30,298 nt of DNA from a virus. Below the pieces are notes generated by a model, which was given only the letters and a program-made list of their open reading frames with translations, did no database searches and was not told the origin of the DNA. This document shows positions 1,459-29,100 of the stretch, piece by piece. Position 1 is the first letter of the stretch; each line of letters opens with the position of its first letter. Both the position numbers and the translations under genes were made by a program. The stretch is from IMG/VR virus record IMGVR_UViG_3300031759_000109, positions 1 through 30,298 of that record, one strand, 5' to 3'.

Positions 1459-1487
1459 ATTATACTACCTTTATGGATAGAAGTCAA
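1459..1487 (-). promoter_or_regulatory. sigma70-type promoter of thyA, predicted leaderless
   Basis: The -35 TTGACT is at 1482-1487 and the -10 TATAAT at 1459-1464, with a 17-bp spacer. Six bases separate the -10 box from the thyA ATG (A at 1452), so the expected transcription start is the ATG itself. No usable Shine-Dalgarno sequence is present before this ATG. Confidence 0.75.
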
Positions 1488-5125: not shown

Positions 5126-5536
5126 TTAGTCCTCCCATGGCACAGGGTGCCATCCTAAGCTAGCTAAGTCAGCAAGTATTTCATCTGTTACAACACTTTC
5201 TGGTACATATCCTGCGGCTATCTGCTCATCATATAAATCAACACCACCACTTATACCGCTACAGTACCAACTTAGGTAATCGCCTTCACCTCTGAGTTCT
5301 GCTACAATGCCACCCGCGGTACGCCAAGTAACTGACCATAGTTCATCTTTAAGCACAGGCCACATTTCCAACTTTTGCCACTGCATATTACACATAGCCG
5401 CATATAAGTTCTGCGCATACTGATCGTTTTTGACTTTTTCAAGAATCATGCGACTATTCTGCATATCCTCTCTGAGATCATGTTCAATCTTCACGGTGGG
5501 GATGTTTACTTTTACGATTGTATTTTGTGCGGTCAC
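5126..5536 (-). CDS. hypothetical protein, 136 aa, GTG start inside the preceding gene
   Basis: Not recognised. The protein begins with GTG at 5536, preceded by AAGG at 6-base spacing. That start lies within the 46-aa gene 5484-5624, giving a 53-base out-of-frame overlap. An ATG at 5464 (residue 25) is an alternative that would remove the overlap but has a cramped ribosome site. The middle is helical ('DQYAQNLYAAMCNMQWQKLE'). The second half is a compact mixed domain ('WRTAGGIVAELRGEGDYLSW') with an acidic end and a final 'LGWHPVPWED'. No catalytic motif is visible. Confidence 0.75.
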   Translation of the reverse strand: MTAQNTIVKVNIPTVKIEHDLREDMQNSRMILEKVKNDQYAQNLYAAMCNMQWQKLEMWPVLKDELWSVTWRTAGGIVAELRGEGDYLSWYCSGISGGVDLYDEQIAAGYVPESVVTDEILADLASLGWHPVPWED

Positions 5537-5624
5537 GTTCTACCTTGGCTTTAAACGGTAAATCCTTGTTAAACAATGCTTGATGTCTACGTATATTCAT
5601 TTTAATTTTCTTGGTATTTTTCAT
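5484..5624 (-). CDS. 46-aa very basic protein under its own promoter
   Basis: A short gene with a 46-aa product rich in Lys, Arg and His ('MKNTKKIKMNIRRHQALFNK', then 'DLPFKAKVERDRTKYNRKSK'). A near-perfect promoter ends 7 bases before the ATG, so the mRNA is expected to begin at or one base before the start codon. The high positive charge suggests nucleic-acid or ribosome contact (inference). Its 3' end overlaps the start of the 136-aa gene by 53 bases in another frame. The Lys/Arg pattern resembles a class of tiny conserved T4-like phage proteins, recalled from memory. Confidence 0.7.
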   Translation of the reverse strand: MKNTKKIKMNIRRHQALFNKDLPFKAKVERDRTKYNRKSKHPHRED

Positions 5625-5631
5625 TGTAGTA

Positions 5632-5660
5632 ATTATACAGTCAATGAATCAAAATGTCAA
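5632..5660 (-). promoter_or_regulatory. sigma70-type promoter with the upstream stop codon inside the -35 box
   Basis: The -35 TTGACA is at 5655-5660 and the -10 TATAAT at 5632-5637, with a 17-bp spacer. The TGA stop of the 152-aa gene (5657-5659) is embedded in the TTGACA. Seven bases separate the -10 box from the ATG at 5624, so the transcript should be leaderless or nearly so. Confidence 0.8.
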
Positions 5661-6115
5661 GCGTAAGCGCCAGAACCACCGTCATCGGCATAGCCGTAAC
5701 TGTGATCCATTTCATCGTCCTCTTCATCTTCTTCAATGGTTTCTATTCCACCTAACTTACCTGTGACTAACTTACCAGTCTTGAGAGTTTTCATTAGATG
5801 CTTTTTACGTTCAAGATCTTCTTTGGCTGTGCGCTTTTTATCATTGGTAAGTTTAAGTGTCTCATCATACTTGCGAGCCCACTCAATACCTTGTAGCCAA
5901 TAGTCAATAGCTTCAATAGTACCACTGAAGAAATAAGTGTCACGGCTATAGTGCGGTAAACAGTCATCTTTGGGCTTTACGTAAATATCACTGTTAACTC
6001 CAATGCTGATCCATGCGCTGGTATTGTAGGGAGTGTCTGCTAACTTAAAGCCAAGCTCATCAGCTTTGGCTTCTACTTTCTTCATACGCTGCATGTCATT
6101 CCAAGTTAATGCCAT
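5657..6115 (-). CDS. hypothetical protein with acidic C-terminal tail, 152 aa
   Basis: Not recognised. The first 85 residues form a mixed domain ('MALTWNDMQRMKKVEAKADE', then 'DTYFFSGTIEAIDYWLQGIE'). A Lys-rich helix follows (about 90-118), and then a tail of Glu/Asp, Tyr and Gly ('EEDEEDDEMDHSYGYADDGG'). Acidic tails of this sort can mimic nucleic acid or bind basic partners, which is speculative here. The ribosome site AAGGAG lies in the end of the preceding gene. The stop codon doubles as part of the next promoter. Confidence 0.75.
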   Translation of the reverse strand: MALTWNDMQRMKKVEAKADELGFKLADTPYNTSAWISIGVNSDIYVKPKDDCLPHYSRDTYFFSGTIEAIDYWLQGIEWARKYDETLKLTNDKKRTAKEDLERKKHLMKTLKTGKLVTGKLGGIETIEEDEEDDEMDHSYGYADDGGSGAYA

Positions 6116-6387: not shown

Positions 6388-6617
6388 TATACTACCTTTC
6401 CTAATACTGTGCTGATTAATTCATCTACCAGATGATCATATGGTTGCCCACGAACGTGTTTGGCCATGTAGATATCTCGAACTAACTCATTGCCACTGGC
6501 ACCAGTCCAAGTAGCACTGGTAGTGCCTTTTCGTCGTGTAAGTTCTTCAACCAGATCTTCAGTTTCAAAGTCATCTAAGTCAACCCAAACTTCTTCTTCA
6601 ACAGTTACATAAGGCAT
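6387..6617 (-). CDS. hypothetical protein, 76 aa
   Basis: Not recognised. The N-terminus is a beta-strand-like acidic segment 'MPYVTVEEEVWVDLDDFETE'. A helix 'DLVEELTRRKGT' and a C-terminal helical part 'DHLVDELISTVLGKVV' follow. Its ATG overlaps the TAA stop of the VWA protein gene upstream, so it is the first small gene behind it and probably translated by coupling. Similar short acidic proteins with a 'V.V..E..VDLDDF...DL..EL' pattern occur in phages and are usually annotated as hypothetical. Confidence 0.7.
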   Translation of the reverse strand: MPYVTVEEEVWVDLDDFETEDLVEELTRRKGTTSATWTGASGNELVRDIYMAKHVRGQPYDHLVDELISTVLGKVV

Positions 6618-7903
6618 TATCGTTTAGTTCCTTTGTCTAAGTCATAATACGCAGTTAACCCATATGGTGCAGTAATACTTGTGCTACCGTGAATAATAAA
6701 CAAGGTATCACAGTAGTTTTCATCACCCCAACCATCACCTGGGTATCCATCTGTAAACATCACAAACTTCTTAGGTACTATGTCATTATCTACCATGTAC
6801 TGCCAATTGGCTTCAAACAGTGTACCACCACCTCCACCAACTTCCCAATCCATAATTTCATCAATGTTTTCAGCTGTAAATACTGTGGCATTGTATACTT
6901 CAGTATCAAAACTCCAAAGGTGTAGTTTGAAACTGTTGTAACTTTCCATAATGCCTTTGACTTCACTTAGAATGTCTTTGAGCATTTCGTCGCTCATTGA
7001 GCCTGATGCGTCAACTGCTACACAGATATCAATTTCTTTTTCTAAATCGTTACCTGGAAGTATAGCATCCATGTCCCAACCTTTACGACTTGGGCGTGCC
7101 CAACTGTAGTCTGCACGGATAGTGCTTTGGATTTGTTGTTGCAACAACTCTCTCCAGTTAAGTTGTGGCTCTGTTAGGTCTTTGATTAAGCGACGAACAC
7201 CTGCTGGTAGTTGTCCTGCACCTACAGTCTGTGCTGCTGAGATAACAGCTTCTTTGATCTCGTCGCGGATTTCTTTCTTTTCAGCTTCTGAAAGTTTAGG
7301 ACGACCCTTGCCTTTACCGTCACCTTCTGGGCCTTCACCATTGGCACTGCTGTTACCGTCGCCATCTTCATCGCCGTCTAAGTGTTCGTCAAGCAACATT
7401 TCTTCTAGGTCTTCAATGCTAATTTTATCAGCTTTAGCATATAAGTCATCGTAGACTTCTTCAGCACTCCACCCACGATATTTTGGATCGTACAACCCAA
7501 CTGGAATCTTTTCACCAATCTTTTGATCTAACAAGTCTTGGTTAACGCAGTAGTCTGCCGCACAGTTAAACAAACGACGATCACGGTCGCCGTTACGTCC
7601 CATATGGTCGTAAACTAAGTGCATTACCTCATGCCCAATTAAAAATTCCAACTGTTTAGCTGGCATTTTTTTAAGGAATTCTGTGTTGTAGTATAGTTTA
7701 CGTCCATCAGTTGCCGCAGTTGGACACCACTCGTCTGCGTTTTCTAAACGTAAGCGTGTAGCCAAGTTACCAAAAAATGGTGCTTTCAACAGTAAGGCAA
7801 TACGAGCACCAATAATTTTTTCGCGTACTTGTGCGTCTACTTGCGCATCTGTTTTAATGCCAATGCGTTTTTTCTTTTCTGAATTTGTAGTAGCTGTTGT
7901 CAT
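6617..7903 (-). CDS. VWA-domain protein with HExxH metallopeptidase-like N-terminus
   Basis: A 428-aa protein of the DUF2201 type. The N-terminal half is a putative zinc metallopeptidase with 'LIGHEVMHLVYDH' (HExxH at residues 91-95, a further His at 100). An acidic, Gly-rich linker follows (about 165-205). The C-terminal VWA domain has an intact metal-ion-dependent adhesion site: 'DASGS' at 298-302, Thr361 after a Gly run, and Asp385 in 'MFTDGYPGD'. VWA proteins of this family normally work with a MoxR-type AAA+ ATPase to remodel or load metal into a target. A matching ATPase is at 11147-12241 under an almost identical promoter. The substrate is unknown. It leads an operon with several small genes. 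Confidence 0.88.
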   Translation of the reverse strand: MTTATTNSEKKKRIGIKTDAQVDAQVREKIIGARIALLLKAPFFGNLATRLRLENADEWCPTAATDGRKLYYNTEFLKKMPAKQLEFLIGHEVMHLVYDHMGRNGDRDRRLFNCAADYCVNQDLLDQKIGEKIPVGLYDPKYRGWSAEEVYDDLYAKADKISIEDLEEMLLDEHLDGDEDGDGNSSANGEGPEGDGKGKGRPKLSEAEKKEIRDEIKEAVISAAQTVGAGQLPAGVRRLIKDLTEPQLNWRELLQQQIQSTIRADYSWARPSRKGWDMDAILPGNDLEKEIDICVAVDASGSMSDEMLKDILSEVKGIMESYNSFKLHLWSFDTEVYNATVFTAENIDEIMDWEVGGGGGTLFEANWQYMVDNDIVPKKFVMFTDGYPGDGWGDENYCDTLFIIHGSTSITAPYGLTAYYDLDKGTKR

Positions 7904-7931: not shown

Positions 7932-7960
7932 ATTATACACTCAAACTAGGTATTTGTCAA
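7932..7960 (-). promoter_or_regulatory. consensus sigma70-type promoter of the VWA operon
   Basis: The -35 TTGACA is at 7955-7960 and the -10 TATAAT at 7932-7937, with a 17-bp spacer that ends in AGTTTGAGTG. The 14 bases AGTTTGAGTGTATA are identical in the promoter of the AAA+ ATPase gene. The leader is about 22 nt and contains an AAGAAAG-like weak ribosome site. Confidence 0.85.
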
Positions 7961-7988: not shown

Positions 7989-8987
7989 ATGCCTAAATTT
8001 TGTTCTGCTTCGTTTGATACTATTAATATACACCCAAATGGCAATGTAGCATCTTGTTTGTGTGCAGGATGGCATACCTTTGGCGCCAACATGGGTAACC
8101 TAAATCAAAATAGCCTACTGGAAATATTTGCCAATCAAAACTTTGAAAAGTTCAGAGGATCAATCGTAGACCAATCTTTTCAATACTGTCGTAAAGATGA
8201 ATGTGCTAAACTTTGGAATTTGGACCAAGTGGATAATTTGGACCAAGTCATCAAAAGACCAAGTTTACCAACAATGATGAATCTACAGATTGATCGTAAC
8301 TGCAATCTTAAATGCGGTAGTTGCAGAACCAGTGTTGATTGGTCAAAAGATGTAAACCCTCAGGCTGCAAAGATCTTAGATACACTAATCAATGACTATC
8401 AGGATTTTCAACTGCCTGTTTGGTTTCAATGTGATGGGCTAGGTGATATTTTTGCCAGCTCAGCATATCAAAATTTCTTTAGAAGCGAACGTTTACCAAA
8501 ATGTTTTCAATTTAATCTGACTACCAATGGTAATCTAGTTACTAAAAATTTAGATCTATTAGAGAAACTTAAAAGCCAGATATTCAGTGTATGCGTTAGT
8601 TTTGATGCTGGCAATGAAGTTACCTATAAAGAAGTGCGTGGCGGCAAGTACAGTTTAATTGTAGATGGTGTATTAGCTATGATTAAAATGGGTATTCTAA
8701 GAGTCAACACTTCATTTGTTGTACAGAAAAAGAACTATCTTGAAGTACTAGATCACTACAATTTCTGCAAACAAGTAGGTATTAATCACACTGGATTTAG
8801 TAAGATTGATCGTTGGGGACATATGAGTGATGCTTGGTGGCAGGATAATCAAATTGACAACAATCCTGATGTAGACTATGATTTCTTAATTAATGCCCTA
8901 CAAACCATTAAAAAAGATCCAAAATTTAATATCTGTGGCGGGTTAGAAAATCTTATTTCAAGTGTTGTACATGATAAACGCACTTAG
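7989..8987 (+). CDS. radical SAM enzyme with N-terminal twitch/SPASM-like domain
   Basis: A 332-aa SAM-radical enzyme. The Fe-S/SAM motif CxxxCxxC is Cys105-Cys109-Cys112 ('CNLKCGSC'). Before it lies a twitch/SPASM-like segment (about 5-75): Cys5, 'HPNGNVASCLC' (Cys23, Cys25), 'GNLNQNSLLEIF', then 'CRKDEC' (Cys67, Cys72), able to bind an auxiliary cluster. The order twitch-then-core is that of the 'twitch domain-containing radical SAM' proteins. The core continues with 'NLTTNGNLV'. The substrate is unknown; relatives act on peptides or sugars. It is one of only two plus-strand genes, sits between minus-strand operons and overlaps the convergent 94-aa gene by 30 bases. MetK, encoded further along, can supply SAM. 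Confidence 0.88.
   Translation: MPKFCSASFDTINIHPNGNVASCLCAGWHTFGANMGNLNQNSLLEIFANQNFEKFRGSIVDQSFQYCRKDECAKLWNLDQVDNLDQVIKRPSLPTMMNLQIDRNCNLKCGSCRTSVDWSKDVNPQAAKILDTLINDYQDFQLPVWFQCDGLGDIFASSAYQNFFRSERLPKCFQFNLTTNGNLVTKNLDLLEKLKSQIFSVCVSFDAGNEVTYKEVRGGKYSLIVDGVLAMIKMGILRVNTSFVVQKKNYLEVLDHYNFCKQVGINHTGFSKIDRWGHMSDAWWQDNQIDNNPDVDYDFLINALQTIKKDPKFNICGGLENLISSVVHDKRT
8217..8248 (+). repeat. 18-bp-period direct repeat inside the radical SAM gene
   Basis: AATTTGGACCAAGT occurs at 8217-8230 and again at 8235-8248. The 18-base period keeps the frame and gives 'NLDQVDNLDQVI' in the protein, in the linker between twitch segment and core. It looks like a small in-frame duplication. Confidence 0.8.
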
Positions 8988-10306: not shown

Positions 10307-11147
10307 TCCATTCCTTGTATAGTTTAGCTACTGCTTCGTTATAATATAACATGTTTTCAGTTGGATCAGTTATTTGTCTTAACTGATAGTGATAATAATA
10401 TTTAAGCAAAGAAAACGCATCATCATAATATTTTACAGCAATTTCCATAGAAGGTAAACTGTGATGACCACCACTATTGATCAAATTCTGTTCTTGCTCT
10501 TTAACTTTTTCACTCCAATCGTAAGTAGCTACTTCTGCTAGAATATCAGCATACTGTTCAGCAGTAATAGCCTGTAGTTCTAACTTAGTTAGAGCACTGA
10601 CATCTTGCCCTTCGTAGAACACAGGATTGGTATATTTGCTAAAAGGAACAGTTGGATCATATGTGCCTTTTTTCTTTTGTTCTTTTTGTTCTATTAGACA
10701 TACTAGAGTACGCTCTAAAACAAATTTAGCTAGGTCATTTGGGGTAAATGGTTGGTTGGCAACAATGTAGTCTTGTTCAAACTCAAGGAATAGATCAATC
10801 AGTTCTTCAGTATGTTCTATACGATGATCGTTTCTGTTGCGTTCTGTTAGGCTAATACAACTGTTAGTTCTAAACTTAATCTTTTCAATAGTTCTAAATG
10901 TAAGATCTAAACTGTCAGTAATACCTCTAAAACGTTCTTTAGCACAGTCGTTATTACCAGTACCACCTAAACGTTTTTTAGGTTTGCCTAGGCCTTTAAA
11001 CCCAAATCCACCTGTACCTGGACCATGTTGTAGTCTAATTGGACTTGTATAATAACTGTCACTACCTACGTGACTGCAAAGCTCTTGAAGATACTTTGCA
11101 ATCACATAAGCAGTAGCAGTGGCAGTGATTAATTTCTTTGGTAACAT
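10284..11147 (-). CDS. hypothetical protein, 287 aa, between AAA+ ATPase and FkbM genes
   Basis: Function not recognised. Residues 1-30 are hydrophobic-helical ('LITATATAYVIAKYLQELCS'). A basic Gly-rich motif 'GGFGFKGLGKPKKRLGG' (46-62) follows, then a long, mostly helical body of acidic and aromatic stretches ('ELIDLFLEFEQDYIVANQPF', 'FSLLKYYYHYQLRQITDPTE'). The start overlaps the TAA of the AAA+ ATPase gene (TAATG), so the two are translationally coupled, and it could be the client or adaptor of the ATPase (inference from position). There is no known catalytic motif. The Gly/Lys motif resembles the tail of the downstream FkbM protein. Confidence 0.75.
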   Translation of the reverse strand: MLPKKLITATATAYVIAKYLQELCSHVGSDSYYTSPIRLQHGPGTGGFGFKGLGKPKKRLGGTGNNDCAKERFRGITDSLDLTFRTIEKIKFRTNSCISLTERNRNDHRIEHTEELIDLFLEFEQDYIVANQPFTPNDLAKFVLERTLVCLIEQKEQKKKGTYDPTVPFSKYTNPVFYEGQDVSALTKLELQAITAEQYADILAEVATYDWSEKVKEQEQNLINSGGHHSLPSMEIAVKYYDDAFSLLKYYYHYQLRQITDPTENMLYYNEAVAKLYKEWNEELSMA

Positions 11148-12241
11148 TAAGCTACAGCTTGTACAATGTACTTGCCAAAGCGTTTGTGGAACTCATCAAA
11201 TGTTTTCAATTTGTTTGGAACAAATGGTAAGTTGTACACAGTTAACGCTACACGAGCACCCATAACAGTAAGCTCTGTAGTAAAATTAGCCATCATAAAG
11301 CCAAAGAAGTTATCTACCATTTCATGCCATTTTTCTGTAGTAACTTTGTCTTTTTGACTGTTAAGATCTTTCAACTCATAACACATACTAACTGTTAATG
11401 AATACATAGCTGAAATTTCTTTAACTTTCAACTCTTTAACTTTACCCTCTAAAATTTCACGTGGGTTAGGCATTTGTCCTGCTACCTTACGGTGTGCCAT
11501 AAACTTAACTGCGGTACCATCACCAATTGTACCTGCTACCAAGTCAGTTTCAATGTTAGTAGGTAAGTTACCTTCTAGCAATTGACTAACAAAAGTCCAG
11601 CTACGTGGTGTAGCAAAAGCACGGCTTGAACCTTTTGGATCAAAGTCAAACAAGTCTTGTTTAGCAAAACTTACATAACCCACAACGTCTTTGTGAATGT
11701 TATGTTGCACTGCCCAACGTTGCCACGCATCAAAATCTGGACGCATTTCCAAATGGATAAAACGGTTAGCTAGTGGACTTGGCATACGGAATGTAACGCC
11801 TTTGTCACCTTCTCTGTTACCTGCGGCAACTAATACTACATTGTCTGGCAACACATACTTACCAATGCGACGGTTAAGAATCAACTGATAAGCTGCAGCC
11901 TGTACGCTAGGAGCCGCACTGTTCATTTCATCTAAAAACAACACCACAGTTGGATACTGTGCAGCTAGTTCTGCACTTGGCAAGTCAATTGGAGGTGCCC
12001 AATCCATCAAGTTGTTTTCTTTGTTGTAAAATGGAATACCACGAATATCAGTTGGATCCATTTGTCCTAAACGCAAGTCAATCATATGACCTTGCATTTC
12101 TTCTGCAATGCTTTCTACTAGTTCACTTTTGCCAATGCCTGGAGGACCCCAAAGGAACACTGGGCGTTTAGTTTTAAAACATTGTTGTAAAGCAATTCTT
12201 GCTTCTTCACTAGTTACGGTACGATTTTCTGAGACTGCCAT
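11147..12241 (-). CDS. MoxR-type AAA+ ATPase
   Basis: A 364-aa AAA+ ATPase of the MoxR/CobS-like class. Walker A 'GPPGIGKS' is at 32-39, Walker B 'VVLFLDEMN' at 99-107, sensor-1 Asn142 in 'AAGNREGD' and the arginine-finger region 'PSPLANRF' at 154-161. The insert 'RLGQMDPTDIRGIP' (57-70) before Walker B is typical of MoxR. These ATPases form rings that, with a VWA partner, remodel or metallate a target protein. The partner is encoded at 6617-7903, away from it but under the same promoter type. T4-like cyanophages carry CobS-like ATPases of related sequence (known in general). It leads the operon with the 287-aa, FkbM and 94-aa genes. Confidence 0.92.
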   Translation of the reverse strand: MAVSENRTVTSEEARIALQQCFKTKRPVFLWGPPGIGKSELVESIAEEMQGHMIDLRLGQMDPTDIRGIPFYNKENNLMDWAPPIDLPSAELAAQYPTVVLFLDEMNSAAPSVQAAAYQLILNRRIGKYVLPDNVVLVAAGNREGDKGVTFRMPSPLANRFIHLEMRPDFDAWQRWAVQHNIHKDVVGYVSFAKQDLFDFDPKGSSRAFATPRSWTFVSQLLEGNLPTNIETDLVAGTIGDGTAVKFMAHRKVAGQMPNPREILEGKVKELKVKEISAMYSLTVSMCYELKDLNSQKDKVTTEKWHEMVDNFFGFMMANFTTELTVMGARVALTVYNLPFVPNKLKTFDEFHKRFGKYIVQAVA

Positions 12242-12293: not shown

Positions 12294-12322
12294 AGTATAC
12301 ACTCAAACTGAACAGATGTCAA
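12294..12322 (-). promoter_or_regulatory. sigma70-type promoter of the AAA+ ATPase operon
   Basis: The -35 TTGACA is at 12317-12322 and the -10 TATACT at 12294-12299, with a 17-bp spacer ending CAGTTTGAGTG. It shares AGTTTGAGTGTATA with the VWA-operon promoter. The leader is about 46 nt with AGAAAGG some 10 bases before the ATG. Confidence 0.82.
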
Positions 12323-12326
12323 GTAC

Positions 12327-12494
12327 TTAATGCAGTGTGTCTGAATCTGGAATAACCACACACTTGCCTGCGTTAAATCTAGCCACAGCTAATTCTGCCA
12401 TGGCCACAATAGATTCAACTGCTTCACGGTCCTCTCTAGTCAGTCCCTCTGAACCCCAAATTTGGTCTACGATTGCTTGATCTTCTAGAGTCAT
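12327..12494 (-). CDS. small hypothetical protein, 55 aa
   Basis: A short gene with a 55-aa, mainly helical acidic product ('MTLEDQAIVDQIWGSEGLTR' then 'EDREAVESIVAMAELAVARF') ending 'VVIPDSDTLH'. The ATG overlaps the TAA of the 142-aa gene (TAATG) and a GAGGAAG ribosome site lies in the end of that gene. The stop falls 5 bases before the -35 box of the next promoter. The frame is open with clean coupling on both sides, which is the main support. The function is unknown. Confidence 0.68.
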   Translation of the reverse strand: MTLEDQAIVDQIWGSEGLTREDREAVESIVAMAELAVARFNAGKCVVIPDSDTLH

Positions 12495-12924: not shown

Positions 12925-13185
12925 TTAAGCAGCCTCTCTTTCGTCTTTCATTAAGTTAAACATGATGTACTTGGCAATGTTGATATATTGACGAGCGCGG
13001 TTAGCTGTTTCTGGACTTACCCAACCATCTGTATTAAACTCTGGATCTAAGATCTGTTGTGCATCACTTAACATACCTGCGGCAAACATCATTTCTTGAC
13101 CTGGAAACGCTTGTTCTTTTACCATACGATCTACTGCCGCTTTTGGCATACCGTATGCTTGTAATTCCCATTGTAGATCTGACAT
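12925..13185 (-). CDS. hypothetical helical protein, 86 aa
   Basis: Not recognised. The start is taken at ATG 13185 ('MSDLQWELQAYG'), where AGGAG sits 7 bases upstream. The frame is open 42 bases further, but that would run into the promoter's transcribed leader and -10 box. The protein is helical ('PKAAVDRMVKEQAFPGQEMM', 'ANRARQYINIAKYIMFNLMK') without recognisable motifs. It is the first gene of the unit that includes the 142-aa and 55-aa genes. Confidence 0.75.
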   Translation of the reverse strand: MSDLQWELQAYGMPKAAVDRMVKEQAFPGQEMMFAAGMLSDAQQILDPEFNTDGWVSPETANRARQYINIAKYIMFNLMKDEREAA

Positions 13186-13218: not shown

Positions 13219-13247
13219 ATTATACACTCAAAACAACCAAAAGTCAA
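13219..13247 (-). promoter_or_regulatory. sigma70-type promoter with upstream stop codon in the -35 box
   Basis: The -35 TTGACT is at 13242-13247 and the -10 TATAAT at 13219-13224, with a 17-bp spacer ending TTTTGAGTG. The TGA stop of the membrane-protein gene (13244-13246) forms part of the -35. The bases after the -10 (GTTACACATACAATAA) also resemble those after the VWA promoter. Confidence 0.82.
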
Positions 13248-13489
13248 CCAAAAAATGCGTTATAGATGCCAATTGATCCAATGGTTAAACTAATAATATT
13301 AACCAGAGTTTGTGGCTTGTTACGAGTACGAATTGCCCAAGTTAGAAAGCAGGCTGTACCAAAAAAGAATACTATAATGTTCCAAGGATACACACTTGGA
13401 CCAATAGCATTCAGAGTGTGCCCTGCTACAACTAGTGGAGCACCCGTCCACTGTAATACATCGTTGGTTTCTAATTTAGTTATTTTCAT
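13244..13489 (-). CDS. small inner-membrane protein, 81 aa, two spans
   Basis: Not recognised by function. There are two hydrophobic segments: about 37-54 ('NIIVFFFGTACFLTWAI') and 62-80 ('LVNIISLTIGSIGIYNAFFG'), joined by a basic loop 'RTRNKPQ', which should lie in the cytoplasm. The conserved-looking 'GHTLNAIGPSVYPWN' before the first span is the kind of motif seen in a family of phage two-span proteins (recalled, not searched). The start overlaps the end of the 101-aa Cys-rich gene by 14 bases. It may modify the host membrane, which is inference only. Confidence 0.75.
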   Translation of the reverse strand: MKITKLETNDVLQWTGAPLVVAGHTLNAIGPSVYPWNIIVFFFGTACFLTWAIRTRNKPQTLVNIISLTIGSIGIYNAFFG

Positions 13490-13781
13490 TCTTTAAAGCC
13501 TCCCACATTACTTCTTTTTCAATTATCTCACGTACTTCTGGGTCGTTGACATAGTTTAGGATATGACCACTTTCTTGATCCACATCAATTTCAACTGGCG
13601 ACCCTTGAGTGTATCGTGGGCATTCGTTAGCAAACTCTGCTTCTGGGCTGTGACCCCAACGGTGGTCTGCTGGAAATTTAGGATTCAAGTTCAACACACA
13701 GCGAGCATCGGAACCCTCAACTGTCCAGTTGGAGTATCCATAGTCTTCTAACACACAAAATTTACATTCATCGCATCTCAT
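13476..13781 (-). CDS. Cys-rich putative metal-binding protein, 101 aa
   Basis: Function unknown. The start at ATG 13781 gives 'MRCDECKFCVLEDYGYSNWT' with Cys3, Cys6 and Cys9. Further Cys are in 'ARCVLNLNP' and 'NECPRY', so a zinc or Fe-S site made of CxxCxxC plus two later Cys is likely. The Trp/Tyr/Pro context ('FPADHRWGHSPEAEFANECP') recalls short bacterial proteins with 'C..C.......W.....C..NPP' zinc sites. The C-terminus is an acidic helix. The frame is open 42 bases upstream, but that would cover the promoter. The transcript is expected to begin about 3 nt before the ATG. Confidence 0.75.
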   Translation of the reverse strand: MRCDECKFCVLEDYGYSNWTVEGSDARCVLNLNPKFPADHRWGHSPEAEFANECPRYTQGSPVEIDVDQESGHILNYVNDPEVREIIEKEVMWEALKNENN

Positions 13782-13790
13782 AGTTTCATA

Positions 13791-13819
13791 AGTATACAGC
13801 CTTTTAATCAAAAAGTCAA
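13791..13819 (-). promoter_or_regulatory. sigma70-type promoter of the Cys-rich protein gene, nearly leaderless
   Basis: The -35 TTGACT is at 13814-13819 and the -10 TATACT at 13791-13796, with a 17-bp spacer. Nine bases lie between the -10 and the ATG at 13781, giving a leader of about 3 nt and no ribosome site. It lies directly behind the terminator of the exported-protein gene. Confidence 0.75.
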
Positions 13820-13821
13820 CC

Positions 13822-13846
13822 AAAATAAAAGCCCCTTTCGGGGCTT
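13822..13846 (-). terminator. Rho-independent terminator of the exported-protein gene
   Basis: Minus-strand reading: AAGCCCC (13846-13840), loop GAAA (13839-13836), GGGGCTT (13835-13829), then TTATTTTG. The GC-rich 7-bp stem with a stable GAAA tetraloop and U-rich end is a classic terminator, 3 bases after the gene's stop. Confidence 0.85.
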
Positions 13847-19454: not shown

Positions 19455-20450
19455 TTAAATCCTTTCTGGATATGCAGCACTTAGCCAATCAGCCATAGCA
19501 CTAGCATTATCGCTTAGTTTAACAAGATCATACTTACCACAAAACTTCAAAAACTGTGCACCTATCATTGGACTATTTTTAGGTGTTTGTGCAACCTTAA
19601 TAGTATCCCAAATCTTTTCTTTAATATGATCTGGTTGAGCAGTTAGATCAACTAGAGTAACATTACGATTGTAGTCATCTAAGACCTTATGCTCTTTACC
19701 GTTGTGATCAACCCAACGCTGTAACATTAGGTTATTCCAGTTATAGCCTTTGGTACCACGGTCAGCAAATGCTTCTTCTAGGCCTACTTTGTTCTTAGTG
19801 CCTTTAGTACGCACACCAGGATAAGCACTGAAGATATTATCTGTAGGGTCACCACGCATACACTTTTCAAACAAGATAAACTTAGGATCAGGAATCTTCT
19901 TAGCTTCTTTGGTTTTCTTGTCTATAACAGGTTTACCTTTTTTATCAAAGATGCCCTGTATAGTATGAAGTTCATCTGCTATGCCATTGTATTGGTTAAC
20001 ATTACTAGCCAATAGCTGATGAAAATCAGTATCACTACTAACAATAGTGTGATGATCGTTAGGGTGCGCTTGAATAAAACCCGCGATGAGGTCATCCGCT
20101 TCAAGTTCCGGATGCTGTAGAACTGTGCAGTTTGTTCGTTCTGCAATGAATGTTTTGAGCGCATCAAAAGTCTCCCAAAATAACTTATCTTCTTCTGCTT
20201 CTGATTCTGTTAATGCCTGACGTGCTACAGTACGATTTTTCTTATAAGGTTCGTAGAAGTCTTTGCGCCAACTGCGGCCTTCAAGACAAAAGATCACATG
20301 ATCAGCCTTTTGATCACGCCATGATTTGTTTACTGATGCTAGGGTTACGTGGATAGCAAAACCCAGCTTATCCCAAGTGTCGCTTTGGCGATGTGCTGAA
20401 TGTCTTGCTCTAAAGAATGTGTTTGCTGTGTCTACAAGTAAGTATCTCAT
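19455..20450 (-). CDS. 5'-3' exonuclease, FEN / T4 RNase H-like
   Basis: A 331-aa flap-endonuclease-family nuclease. In T4 the relative removes RNA primers and 5' flaps during lagging-strand synthesis. Metal-binding acids: Asp7 in 'LLVDTANTFFRA', the 'FYEPYKKNR' arch (65-73), 'ELEADDLIAGF' (115-125, Glu117, Asp119, Asp120), 'SSDTDFHQLL' (138-147, Asp140, Asp142) and 'MRGDPTDNIF', the helix-hairpin region Asp pair. Because Asp7 needs this N-terminus, the start is secure. The promoter ends 6 bases before the ATG, so the mRNA is predicted to begin with the start codon. The zinc-ribbon and 3'-5' exonuclease genes follow in the operon. Confidence 0.94.
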   Translation of the reverse strand: MRYLLVDTANTFFRARHSAHRQSDTWDKLGFAIHVTLASVNKSWRDQKADHVIFCLEGRSWRKDFYEPYKKNRTVARQALTESEAEEDKLFWETFDALKTFIAERTNCTVLQHPELEADDLIAGFIQAHPNDHHTIVSSDTDFHQLLASNVNQYNGIADELHTIQGIFDKKGKPVIDKKTKEAKKIPDPKFILFEKCMRGDPTDNIFSAYPGVRTKGTKNKVGLEEAFADRGTKGYNWNNLMLQRWVDHNGKEHKVLDDYNRNVTLVDLTAQPDHIKEKIWDTIKVAQTPKNSPMIGAQFLKFCGKYDLVKLSDNASAMADWLSAAYPERI

Positions 20451-20456
20451 GTAAAC

Positions 20457-20485
20457 ATTATACTATCTTTTAACTCAAAAGTCAA
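20457..20485 (-). promoter_or_regulatory. sigma70-type promoter of the exonuclease operon, predicted leaderless
   Basis: The -35 TTGACT is at 20480-20485 and the -10 TATAAT at 20457-20462, with a 17-bp spacer. The TGA stop of the upstream 163-aa gene (20482-20484) is part of the -35. Six bases separate the -10 from the ATG at 20450, putting the start on the A of ATG. Confidence 0.82.
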
Positions 20486-20973
20486 CTGATTTCCGTTCTA
20501 CCGTTGCCTAAATCTCTACGGTTAGTTGGGCGATTACTTGGATCAGCCATTGCTTGTTCAAAGTTTTCCATAACTACATTTGAACATACAGCACGGAACC
20601 AATTGTCTACAATGTCTTGATCAGTTTTACCTTGATAGCCAGCTTTGATCAAACGAGCTACAAAGATATCATTCCAATCTAATTCAAATGCACCATTACT
20701 TGGGTCATTTGGGTCAATTTCCATACTTAGTACAGTGACCCAAGGCTCACCAGCTTTAGTAGCTTGTTCTTTTGGGCTGTTCTTTTTGGCTTTTTCTTCT
20801 GCAGCTTTCTTGGCAGCGACCTCAGCTTTTTTAGCTTTGGCGGCTTCTGCCTTGGCCTTACGCTCTTCAGCCTTGCGTTCTTTTTCAGCTTGAGCTTCTG
20901 CTTCTGCGGCAAGTCTTAAACGTTCTTCTTCCTCACGCTTTGCTTTGCCTGTTAGTTTATCAAATAAACCCAT
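20482..20973 (-). CDS. conserved T4-like phage protein with Ala/Glu/Lys coiled coil
   Basis: A 163-aa protein. Residues 1-75 begin 'MGLFDKLTGKAKREEEERLR' and continue as a highly charged Ala/Glu/Lys helix, probably a long single helix or coiled coil. The C-terminal domain (76-150) has 'EPWVTVLSMEIDPNDPSNG', 'FELDWNDIFVARLIKAGYQG' and 'DQDIVDNWFRAVCSNVV', which recalls a protein conserved across T4-like cyanophages with no assigned role. It follows metK at 3 bases. Its stop is shared with the -35 of the exonuclease promoter. Confidence 0.82.
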   Translation of the reverse strand: MGLFDKLTGKAKREEEERLRLAAEAEAQAEKERKAEERKAKAEAAKAKKAEVAAKKAAEEKAKKNSPKEQATKAGEPWVTVLSMEIDPNDPSNGAFELDWNDIFVARLIKAGYQGKTDQDIVDNWFRAVCSNVVMENFEQAMADPSNRPTNRRDLGNGRTEIS

Positions 20974-26299: not shown

Positions 26300-26532
26300 T
26301 TCTTTTCCTTAATATCTCTAAGTGTATTAGCGCGATGACGCCAAAATTTAACATCTTCTAACAGACTTTCGCTTAAATTGCGATAACGAACAAGATCTTT
26401 ACGTACTTCTTCATCTATTTGTTCGTAGGCTTTTTGTCTATCCTTGGCCTTGCGATCATTATAAATGTTAAGCCCAAAGAATATTCCAAAGACCAGTCCT
26501 ACACCAAACCATACTACGTCAGCGCCTATCAT
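26296..26532 (-). CDS. membrane-anchored coiled-coil protein, 78 aa
   Basis: The N-terminal membrane helix is at residues 5-23 ('DVVWFGVGLVFGIFFGLNIY'), followed by a long charged helix ('DRKAKDRQKAYEQIDEEVRK') likely to form a coiled coil. The basic 'NDRKAKDR' directly after the span places the coiled coil in the cytoplasm by the positive-inside rule. An inner-membrane spanin has the same layout but faces the periplasm. It sits behind folE with a 4-base overlap (ATGA). The function is unknown. Confidence 0.72.
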   Translation of the reverse strand: MIGADVVWFGVGLVFGIFFGLNIYNDRKAKDRQKAYEQIDEEVRKDLVRYRNLSESLLEDVKFWRHRANTLRDIKEKK

Positions 26533-27239
26533 CTTGGAGCAAACTCCTGTTGAAGTTTAATGTTGTCAAAGAATTCTTTCTTAGTATTTGGATCATTCTT
26601 AAACGCACCCGTTAACACTGTAGTCTGCGTTAGGCTACTATGTGCCATAATGCCACGATTCTCACAACAACCATGTGTTGCTTGAATGTAGACTGCTACG
26701 TTATCTGATCCAGTCGCCTTAGCAATTTCTCTCGTGATATCATTTGCAAGCTCTTCTTGTAGAGTACCACGGCGAGCACACCATTGAGCAATTCTAGTGT
26801 ATTTAGATAAGCCGATAAGTTTGTTAGCGGCAATAATTCCAATGTAAGCGACTCCTGCGACAGGCTGATGGTGGTGTGAGCACATACTACGTAGCTCGCT
26901 ACGAACCACAAGCATACCTTCGTATCTATCTGCGCTATCATTTGGAAAAGCTGTTGCATCTGGTGCTGGGTCATATCTGCCCGCCATGATTTCGTTAAAG
27001 TACATTTTAGCTAGTCTGCGTGCTGTGCCGTGACTGTTGGGATCTGTTTCACGATCAATTAACAAAGTATCTAGTACACTTTCAAATGCTAGAGTTGCTT
27101 CGTCAATTAATAGTTGTTTGCTTTCTTCTGTAATGTATTCTGAGATGTTATCACCTGCCCAGAAACGTTTGTTGTCTTTCTTTAAGTTAGTACGAATGAT
27201 TTCGCTAACAGGTTTAATATGACTGTATTTTGTTACCAT
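26529..27239 (-). CDS. folE: GTP cyclohydrolase I FolE
   Basis: First committed step of both folate and 7-deazaguanine synthesis: GTP to 7,8-dihydroneopterin triphosphate. The protein is 236 aa. Zinc ligands are Cys120 and His123 in 'SMCSHHHQPVAG', and Cys191 in 'ATHGCCENRGI'; catalytic His122 and His189 are also present. 'ANKLIGLSKYTRIAQWCARR' (138-157) is the family's substrate-loop region. The N-terminal 40 residues are an extension. Because queD and queE are in the window, it probably feeds 7-deazaguanine; folate supply with DHFR is the alternative. It has its own promoter and GGAG ribosome site. Confidence 0.94.
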   Translation of the reverse strand: MVTKYSHIKPVSEIIRTNLKKDNKRFWAGDNISEYITEESKQLLIDEATLAFESVLDTLLIDRETDPNSHGTARRLAKMYFNEIMAGRYDPAPDATAFPNDSADRYEGMLVVRSELRSMCSHHHQPVAGVAYIGIIAANKLIGLSKYTRIAQWCARRGTLQEELANDITREIAKATGSDNVAVYIQATHGCCENRGIMAHSSLTQTTVLTGAFKNDPNTKKEFFDNIKLQQEFAPR

Positions 27240-27281: not shown

Positions 27282-27310
27282 AGTATACTAGATTATTTAG
27301 GCAATGTCAA
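27282..27310 (-). promoter_or_regulatory. sigma70-type promoter of folE with upstream stop codon in the -35 box
   Basis: The -35 TTGACA is at 27305-27310 and the -10 TATACT at 27282-27287, with a 17-bp spacer. The TGA stop of the radical SAM gene (27307-27309) lies inside the -35. The leader is about 36 nt with CGGAG before the ATG at 27239. Confidence 0.82.
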
Positions 27311-29100
27311 ACGATCTTGGTAAAAATATTCTTTAATGCGCCGTCTCTTCTTGCTCGGGCGAACTCGAATTTTTGATCAATTAACATTTTAGTTGATATA
27401 ATATATGATGTTGGCAAAGGATCCCATGAAGTTAAATCCCAATTTGATGTGATAGTTTTTGGTAAATTTAAATTCTCATCATATATAAAATAATGCTGTA
27501 ATAGATCTACAGCATCAGTGTTGGTGGTAAAGTTTGACACAATTTGTTTACCTAACTTAAAAATATGTTCTTTATGTTCGTAAAAATATTGAAAACTAGT
27601 GTACCCTAAAATATGTCCTGTTACCCCAGTATCTGTTATTTTGCCAGTAGTTAAAAATTCTCTGACATTATTAGCAAATTTAGTATAATGCTCTTTGAAT
27701 GGTTGATATTCTTTTATTTCTTTAAACAATAAATCATAAAATTGTCTATACGATACTCCTAATATATTTCTAGAAAATTTAGCATAAATTTGAGTATATC
27801 CGATAATATGTAATTGAATAATTAACCAACTATAAATGTAGGCTTCGATCATGTCTTCAGTTGACATAGTATTAGTCTGATTAATGATTTGTATTTCTTC
27901 TAATATATCAGTAAAATCATTTTTATTATACTGTGGGTTATAATCATATGCTGTGATAGATTTAATACCGTATTTGAGTTTTGATTCAAATGAATTTAAT
28001 TCACTATTTTCTAATAGTTGGCAAAACCAAGTTTCAATTGAATCATGCTGACCTATTTCTAAAATATTGGCCATGCCGTCTTTCCATGACTCTAATGTCT
28101 CTTCAGGCAATCCTAATATTACTTCGGTGTAAGTGTCGACCTTGTATTCATGACTTAACGACAACAATTGAGAAATATTGTTAATATCCATGTTCTTGCG
28201 TTTAATTGCGGTTAAGGTATCATCATTCATACTTTGCACACTAAATGTTAATCCTTTACTAAGATTTTTTAATACCTGTGCTATTTTGTAAATATGTTCA
28301 GTGGAGTTTTTAGCAAAGGTTAAATTTACTCTGTCAAGATATGGACTTTGATCAGCAACATCTCGCATCATCTGTGCTATTTCAAGATCGCGGTCTTTAA
28401 ACACTCCAAAATTACTATCAGCACAGAATATATATGCTACTTTATTTTTAGAGACCCAATCCAACTCAGCACGCACTCGATCAATTGAAAACTTTCTAAT
28501 TTTAGAATAGATACTGCTACCCCAATCACAGAATGTGCATTGATATGGGCACCCTCGATTGGTTTCTAATGTAATAGCCCATAACACTTCTGGATTATCC
28601 TGAATTATTTGGTCAAATACGCCAGTTAAATATGGACTTGGAATATCTAAATCAGTTAATCTAGATTTAGTATATAATCTGGCAGGAAGATTTCCTTGAT
28701 GAACTTCCTTTAGAATCTCTACAAAATTTATTTCACCTTCTGCTAATACTACACTATCAACAAAAGTATGATTAAGAGTTTTACTATTAACATTTGGCCC
28801 ACCAAACACAGTAATGCAATTAGGCCATTGTTGTTTGATTTGTTTAGCAACTTCGAGGCAATACTTTTCATTCCACAAATAACAACTGAATCCACAGATA
28901 CGAGGATTATCTAGTTGTGCTAATACTTCAATTGGATCTTGTCGTTTAAAAAATAAGTTACCTAAGGTAAAATTTTCTTTAACGAACTCAAACTGCTCAG
29001 CATAACTCCACAAGCATCCTGCACTATAAGGAATCCAATAGTTAAGTTCATTGCGAAATTCAACTGCATATTGTGGTTGAAACAAATAAACATTATGCAT
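27307..29100 (-). CDS. radical SAM enzyme with B12-binding-like N-terminal domain, 597 aa
   Basis: A large radical SAM enzyme of the B12-binding-domain type. The N-terminal Rossmann-like domain (about 1-150) has 'NPRICGFSCYLWNEKYCLEV', 'ITVFGGPNVN' (96-105) and 'SVVLAEGEINFVEIL'. It lacks the DxHxxG of base-off cobalamin binders, so cobalamin use is uncertain. The core has Cys184, Cys188 and Cys191 in 'NRGCPYQCTFCDWGSS', then 'YIFCADSNFGVFKDRDLEIA', 'GLTFSVQSMNDDTLTAIKRK' and 'YTEVILGLPEETLESW'. The C-terminal 230 residues are family-specific. Relatives modify sugars, lipids or peptides. It overlaps the oxygenase-like gene by 8 bases and is markedly AT-rich. Confidence 0.88.
   Translation of the reverse strand: MHNVYLFQPQYAVEFRNELNYWIPYSAGCLWSYAEQFEFVKENFTLGNLFFKRQDPIEVLAQLDNPRICGFSCYLWNEKYCLEVAKQIKQQWPNCITVFGGPNVNSKTLNHTFVDSVVLAEGEINFVEILKEVHQGNLPARLYTKSRLTDLDIPSPYLTGVFDQIIQDNPEVLWAITLETNRGCPYQCTFCDWGSSIYSKIRKFSIDRVRAELDWVSKNKVAYIFCADSNFGVFKDRDLEIAQMMRDVADQSPYLDRVNLTFAKNSTEHIYKIAQVLKNLSKGLTFSVQSMNDDTLTAIKRKNMDINNISQLLSLSHEYKVDTYTEVILGLPEETLESWKDGMANILEIGQHDSIETWFCQLLENSELNSFESKLKYGIKSITAYDYNPQYNKNDFTDILEEIQIINQTNTMSTEDMIEAYIYSWLIIQLHIIGYTQIYAKFSRNILGVSYRQFYDLLFKEIKEYQPFKEHYTKFANNVREFLTTGKITDTGVTGHILGYTSFQYFYEHKEHIFKLGKQIVSNFTTNTDAVDLLQHYFIYDENLNLPKTITSNWDLTSWDPLPTSYIISTKMLIDQKFEFARARRDGALKNIFTKIV

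Follow-up and report, generated by a model that had tools for sequence, protein, structure and literature searches.

Sigma70-type promoters packed against gene ends in a phage group: overlap with TGA stops and predicted leaderless genes

Promoters and genes of the window

We analyzed the virus record IMGVR_UViG_3300031759_000109 over its entire 30,298 bases, hereafter the window. Its genes lie nearly all on the minus strand. The strict pattern TTGACW-N17-TATAMT matches the window eight times, always on the coding (minus) strand, and the reversed control has no match. The TTGACW hexamer alone is not enriched (54 copies for 47 expected) and a loose promoter scan gave little excess. Hence, the information lies in the strict pattern. 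The eight sites and the genes around the four that overlap a stop codon are given below in plus-strand coordinates, the promoters themselves being read on the minus strand.

5632 to 5660, minus strand: promoter TTGACA-N17-TATAAT; the TGA of gene 5657-6115 forms -35 bases 2-4; -10 end 7 nt from the ATG at 5624; predicted leaderless
13219 to 13247, minus strand: promoter TTGACT-N17-TATAAT; the TGA of ORF 13244-13489 forms -35 bases 2-4; leadered, aggag ahead of the ATG at 13185
20457 to 20485, minus strand: promoter TTGACT-N17-TATAAT; the TGA of gene 20482-20973 forms -35 bases 2-4; -10 end 6 nt from the ATG at 20450; predicted leaderless 5'-3' exonuclease
27282 to 27310, minus strand: promoter TTGACA-N17-TATACT; the TGA of gene 27307-29100 forms -35 bases 2-4; leadered, ggag ahead of the ATG at 27239 (GTP cyclohydrolase)
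1459 to 1487, minus strand: promoter TTGACT-N17-TATAAT; 2 nt past the TAA stop of the DHFR gene; -10 end 6 nt from the ATG at 1452; predicted leaderless thymidylate synthase
12294 to 12322, minus strand: promoter TTGACA-N17-TATACT; 4 nt past the TAA of gene 12327-12494; leadered ATPase gene 11147-12241
13791 to 13819, minus strand: promoter TTGACT-N17-TATACT; downstream of a terminator-like hairpin (13829-13846); -10 end 9 nt from the ATG at 13781
7932 to 7960, minus strand: promoter TTGACA-N17-TATAAT; divergent from the plus-strand gene 7989-8987; leadered gene 6617-7903
5657 to 6115, minus strand: gene ending inside the -35; weak DUF7689 similarity, below cut-off
5484 to 5624, minus strand: DUF7230 gene, 46 aa, predicted leaderless
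13244 to 13489, minus strand: 81-aa ORF ending inside the -35; no PHROGs or family match, the least certain of the four upstream genes
20482 to 20973, minus strand: virion structural protein gene (phrog_13349) ending inside the -35
27307 to 29100, minus strand: B12-binding/radical SAM protein gene ending inside the -35

A previous sequence-only reading of this DNA had reported four places where the TGA stop of a gene is part of the -35 of the next promoter. All four are present (5660-5655, 13247-13242, 20485-20480, and 27310-27305), each with TTGACA or TTGACT and, exactly 17 nt further on, TATAAT or TATACT. The same reading counted about ten promoters; the strict sites are eight, giving an overlap ratio of 4/8. 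Promoters 20485 and 5660 combine the stop overlap with leaderless spacing, and the interval of 31-32 nt between TGA and ATG contains there the remainder of the promoter.

The phage carries genes of nucleotide metabolism (622-1987, 26529-27239), encoding thymidylate synthase, dihydrofolate reductase, and GTP cyclohydrolase I. The promoter at 13819 is closely preceded by a GC-rich hairpin (13829-13846, minus strand), which has a T-rich tail and is likely an intrinsic terminator. Comparing 12 kb of the window with cultured phages by megablast gave no match, and scanning the window for Rfam families and tRNAs gave no hit either.

A sigma70-type promoter class in related phages

Four proteins of the window served to gather related loci: the 5'-3' exonuclease, the ATPase, the radical SAM protein, and the phrog_1314 protein (6617-7903). 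The resulting set has 266 loci and 3.8 Mb, and it was later extended with PA5oct and with seven larger viral records, taken whole or for the most part. The relatives are mostly fragments, and their genes were called with a simple purpose-written codon-score caller rather than a standard one.

Once near-copies were removed, we found 240 distinct sites with a spacing of 17 in the 266 loci, against around 5 for each control spacing. TTGACA-like and TATAAT-like hexamers thus occur 17±1 nt apart beyond chance. By these sequence tests, the sites are a real sigma70-type promoter class. One might have expected chance matches to the consensus in an AT-rich genome, especially since neither TTGACW alone nor the loose scan exceeds expectation in the window. 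This explanation is extremely improbable: the peak at exactly 17 nt, the strand bias shared with the genes, the nearly empty controls, and the non-random position of the sites relative to genes all speak against it, and the spacing control refutes it.

The sites have the same TTGACA-like -35, 17-nt spacer, TATAAT-like -10, and predicted start around 7 nt downstream as the sigma70 promoters of bacteria, which are used by phages relying on the host RNA polymerase. They differ from generic sigma70 promoters in having nearly the full consensus, a G commonly before TATAMT, and a -35 that is often formed on the TGA of the preceding gene. Sequence recurs within the 17-nt spacer beyond what a generic promoter has, e.g., TTTTGGTTAATTGACTG ahead of TATAAT, both in promoters of the window and in relatives (for instance G005, loci L276-L292). 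A TGA inside the spacer is sometimes the stop of the upstream gene (offset +17).

Frequency of the stop overlap

The overlap is found repeatedly in the phage group, as the sequence-only reading had proposed. A stop at position +1, where the TGA forms -35 bases 2-4, is the commonest stop position and was found at 48 of 206 deduplicated intergenic sites, downstream of 34 upstream gene families. Counting context-unique sites, the overlap is present at 99 of 349, in 33 of 135 gene-family pairs. When each upstream family is weighted once, its share is 22%. The window, with 4 of 7 same-strand sites, is marginally high in comparison (binomial p = 0.048). The frequency varies among the large records, from 5 of 11 promoters in G001 and 6 of 21 in G004 to 1 of 44 in G005, a relative with 49 promoters in all. 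In some gene pairs, all or nearly all members have the overlap (21 of 22 and 13 of 13), which could reflect constraint or shared descent. The same gene pair often has its stop elsewhere in related phages: in the DHFR-thyA pair, the position of the C-terminus with respect to the promoter varies by a few codons (d = -12 to +1). At the level of family pairs, stop overlap and leaderlessness were not clearly associated (9/29 vs 10/37).

Supply of half the -35 hexamer by TGA stops

If the 11 sites from -12 to +1 were used equally, position +1 would have a share of 0.09; the observed share is 0.39 (p = 5e-21). TTGACW was found at 85 TGA stops, for 36.4 expected from base composition, and 54 of these carry a strong -10. 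The surplus copies at TGA stops are the promoters. The sequence-only reading had also offered the motif as a rule for finding promoters, and this rule works: in gaps of 25-90 nt, 72 genes end in TTGACW, and a consensus -10 follows at 17 nt in 54 of these. In annotating this phage group, TTGACW at a gene end within a short gap can thus be taken as the mark of a promoter.

These numbers could suggest that the overlap itself is selected as a space-saver, the shared TGA shortening the intergenic region and being kept for that reason. The enrichment over uniform placement, the three-fold over-representation of TGA stops beside promoters in matched gaps, and the several gene pairs that hold the overlap in nearly all members fit this idea. 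To the contrary, once TTGACW is present, position +1 is not preferred over sites 3-12 nt downstream, a strong -10 being equally likely at both (odds ratio 0.94, p = 1.0, Fisher test). In the 25-90 nt gaps, TTGACW at +1 is followed by a strong -10 in 54 cases, a weak one in 16, and none in 2, and TTGACW at -3 to -12 by a strong -10 in 86, a weak one in 30, and none in 7. For these gaps, the supply of TTGACW is expected to be 12.2 at the overlap vs 5.6 at -3 to -12. It predicts an overlap share of 0.69, higher than the observed 0.39, i.e., the overlap is somewhat under-represented after correction. In addition, the saving would be about 4 nt only, the relative G005 has a single overlap among its 49 promoters, and the stop position moves between orthologous pairs. 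Selection for the overlap as such is therefore quite unlikely.

TGA stops account for 46% of the stops beside promoters, against a gap-matched baseline of 22% (p = 2e-7). Such over-use is expected if TGA eases the formation of promoters. Since TGA is already half of the -35, the excess is explained without selection for the exact overlap, which is not needed. The excess over chance in relatives, which the sequence-only reading had anticipated, hence stands against uniform placement and is gone once the supply of half the -35 by TGA is allowed for. Its proposal of a compaction under selection holds in the looser sense that strong promoters are pressed against gene ends, and finds no support in taking the overlap itself as the target of selection. 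A recurrent arrangement of shared bases can thus arise from the supply of sequence without special selection. TGA stops also looked strongly depleted at 3-12 nt ahead of promoters. This was set aside as mostly an artefact of the many TGA stops at overlapping ATGA junctions; with matched gaps, it amounts to 9% vs 22% (p = 0.01).

Among genes that reach the -35, the stop is at +1 in 27 of 46 families (59%; 27 vs 19), where random frames give 33% (p = 0.0005). Promoters seem to avoid the upstream coding sequence, read-through of the promoter being seemingly avoided, as a mild constraint. The same excess could mean that the promoter came first and donated the stop, an upstream frame running into an in-frame -35 being truncated by its TGA. 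The sliding C-terminal ends of the DHFR-thyA pair are consistent with this. Most families nevertheless end ahead of the -35 by a stop of their own, which makes a promoter-first origin a possible but doubtful account of the overlap.

Predicted leaderless genes and leadered genes

The gap between the -10 and the start codon is bimodal, with one group at 5-8 nt, sharply peaked at 6 (42 of 206 intergenic sites), another at around 16-50 nt, and an interval of 9-15 nt that is nearly empty. When TATAMT is scored independently of the -35, 69 of the 4323 unique gene starts have it at a gap of 6, and around 6 have it at each neighboring position. The usual start point of sigma70 promoters is the seventh base after the -10. 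Since a 6-nt gap puts the A of the ATG at this base, the mRNA is predicted to start at the A of the ATG. Motifs resembling the Shine-Dalgarno (SD) sequence precede 7% of the leaderless genes, 75% of the leadered ones, and 42% of the remaining genes, and the start codon is ATG in all 59 leaderless genes. Bacteria are known to have leaderless genes with a TANNNT signal around 12 nt before the start codon (PMC3160421), and the phage class resembles these in its -10 starting 12 nt before the ATG, its lack of an SD sequence, and its ATG start. The sequence data hence suggest two discrete promoter classes, one leadered with an SD sequence and one predicted to be leaderless, with the -10 mostly 6 nt before the ATG.

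Genes of the second class might alternatively be translated from longer read-through mRNAs, the closeness of -10 and ATG being mere compaction. The genes stand in tandem, and upstream transcripts could continue through them. Yet the interval of 9-15 nt is nearly empty, the peak at 6 nt is sharp, and the SD-like motif is almost absent at leaderless starts and present at leadered genes. We thus regard read-through as an unlikely origin of the pattern.

The predicted leaderless set includes, among promoter-bearing members, the exonuclease (49/49), thymidylate synthase (16/16), a QueE-like protein (4/9), and the DUF7230 gene (4/5). To avoid selecting on the promoter, we picked exonuclease orthologues with unique upstream DNA by their N-terminal motif alone and required at least 9 of 12 matches for a promoter: 89 of 117 have one at leaderless distance, 74 of them at exactly 6 nt. 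The exceptions listed come from loci retrieved via the more distant radical SAM search. In this family, the upstream stop is found at +1, -3, +12, +15, +18, +36, or -36. The distance between -10 and ATG is kept while the stop shifts, which suggests that the promoter is fixed to the downstream start and that the stop is the variable part. As judged from these sequences, the leaderless architecture is more conserved than the stop overlap. In around 18 relatives (L094 at 2295, and other exonuclease loci), the promoter lies within the 3' end of the upstream gene, and the stop of that gene forms ATGA together with the predicted leaderless start (offset +36).

A phage-encoded ribosomal protein bS21 was found in 6 of the 24 records searched: PA5oct (W01, 170985-171143), G003, G004, G005, G007, and W02. 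One may speculate, with little confidence, that a defined gene set (the 5'-3' exonuclease, thymidylate synthase, the DUF7230 protein, and a few others) has been kept leaderless over long divergence and the others SD-led, and that the mode of initiation separates two sets that could switch during infection, e.g., via altered ribosomes, some relatives encoding bS21. We found no clear link between leaderless genes and phage bS21 in these records: bS21 was not found in G001 and G002, which both have leaderless genes.

Proposed explanation

The reading that we consider quite probable is one of strong promoters of the sigma70 type, from which the host RNA polymerase presumably transcribes, and which would be packed right against the end of the preceding gene. 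When this gene ends in TGA, the stop would be the cheapest location for the -35, since half of the hexamer is then in place; a T before and CW after complete TTGACW. When it ends in TAA or TAG, the -35 would be placed 0-9 nt further on. The counts point to the overlap as an outcome of tight packing and free sequence, and not of a function of the overlap. Downstream, the promoter would be anchored in one of two modes. In the first, it is separated from the gene by a leader of around 16-50 nt with an SD sequence. In the second, there would be no leader: the -10 ends 5-8 nt (mostly 6) from the ATG, and the RNA would start from the A of the ATG, as predicted from sigma70 geometry, with leaderless initiation.

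Comparison with known systems

In Deinococcus-Thermus, the -10 adjoins the ORF and the pattern reportedly depends little on other sequences (PMC12340547); the predicted leaderless class differs in being found in phage genomes and in having a full consensus -35. For leaderless promoters of jumbo phages, the AR9 paper was the only one found in the literature; it describes phage transcripts as often leaderless, yet the leaders of AR9 itself have 26-491 nt (PMC5312081). In the limited open-access literature searched, we found no paper on stop codons that form part of the -35 of phage promoters. If confirmed, the leaderless class would represent systematic leaderless mRNA in giant phages of environmental bacteria, and it would aid the annotation of start codons in the genes concerned.

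Judging from two core proteins of the 30-kb window, the exonuclease (52% identity) and the ATPase (51% identity), the closest cultured relatives are the Pseudomonas phage PA5oct (Arenbergviridae, NC_071039) and related giant phages. PA5oct has one annotated TGA overlap, at gp237, which ends at 165596 with the promoter at 165593 (in the GenBank annotation; our purpose-written gene caller missed it), and one gene at leaderless distance, gp244 at 158242. Unlike in the window phage, both features are rare in PA5oct, which has 14 promoters in 287 kb.
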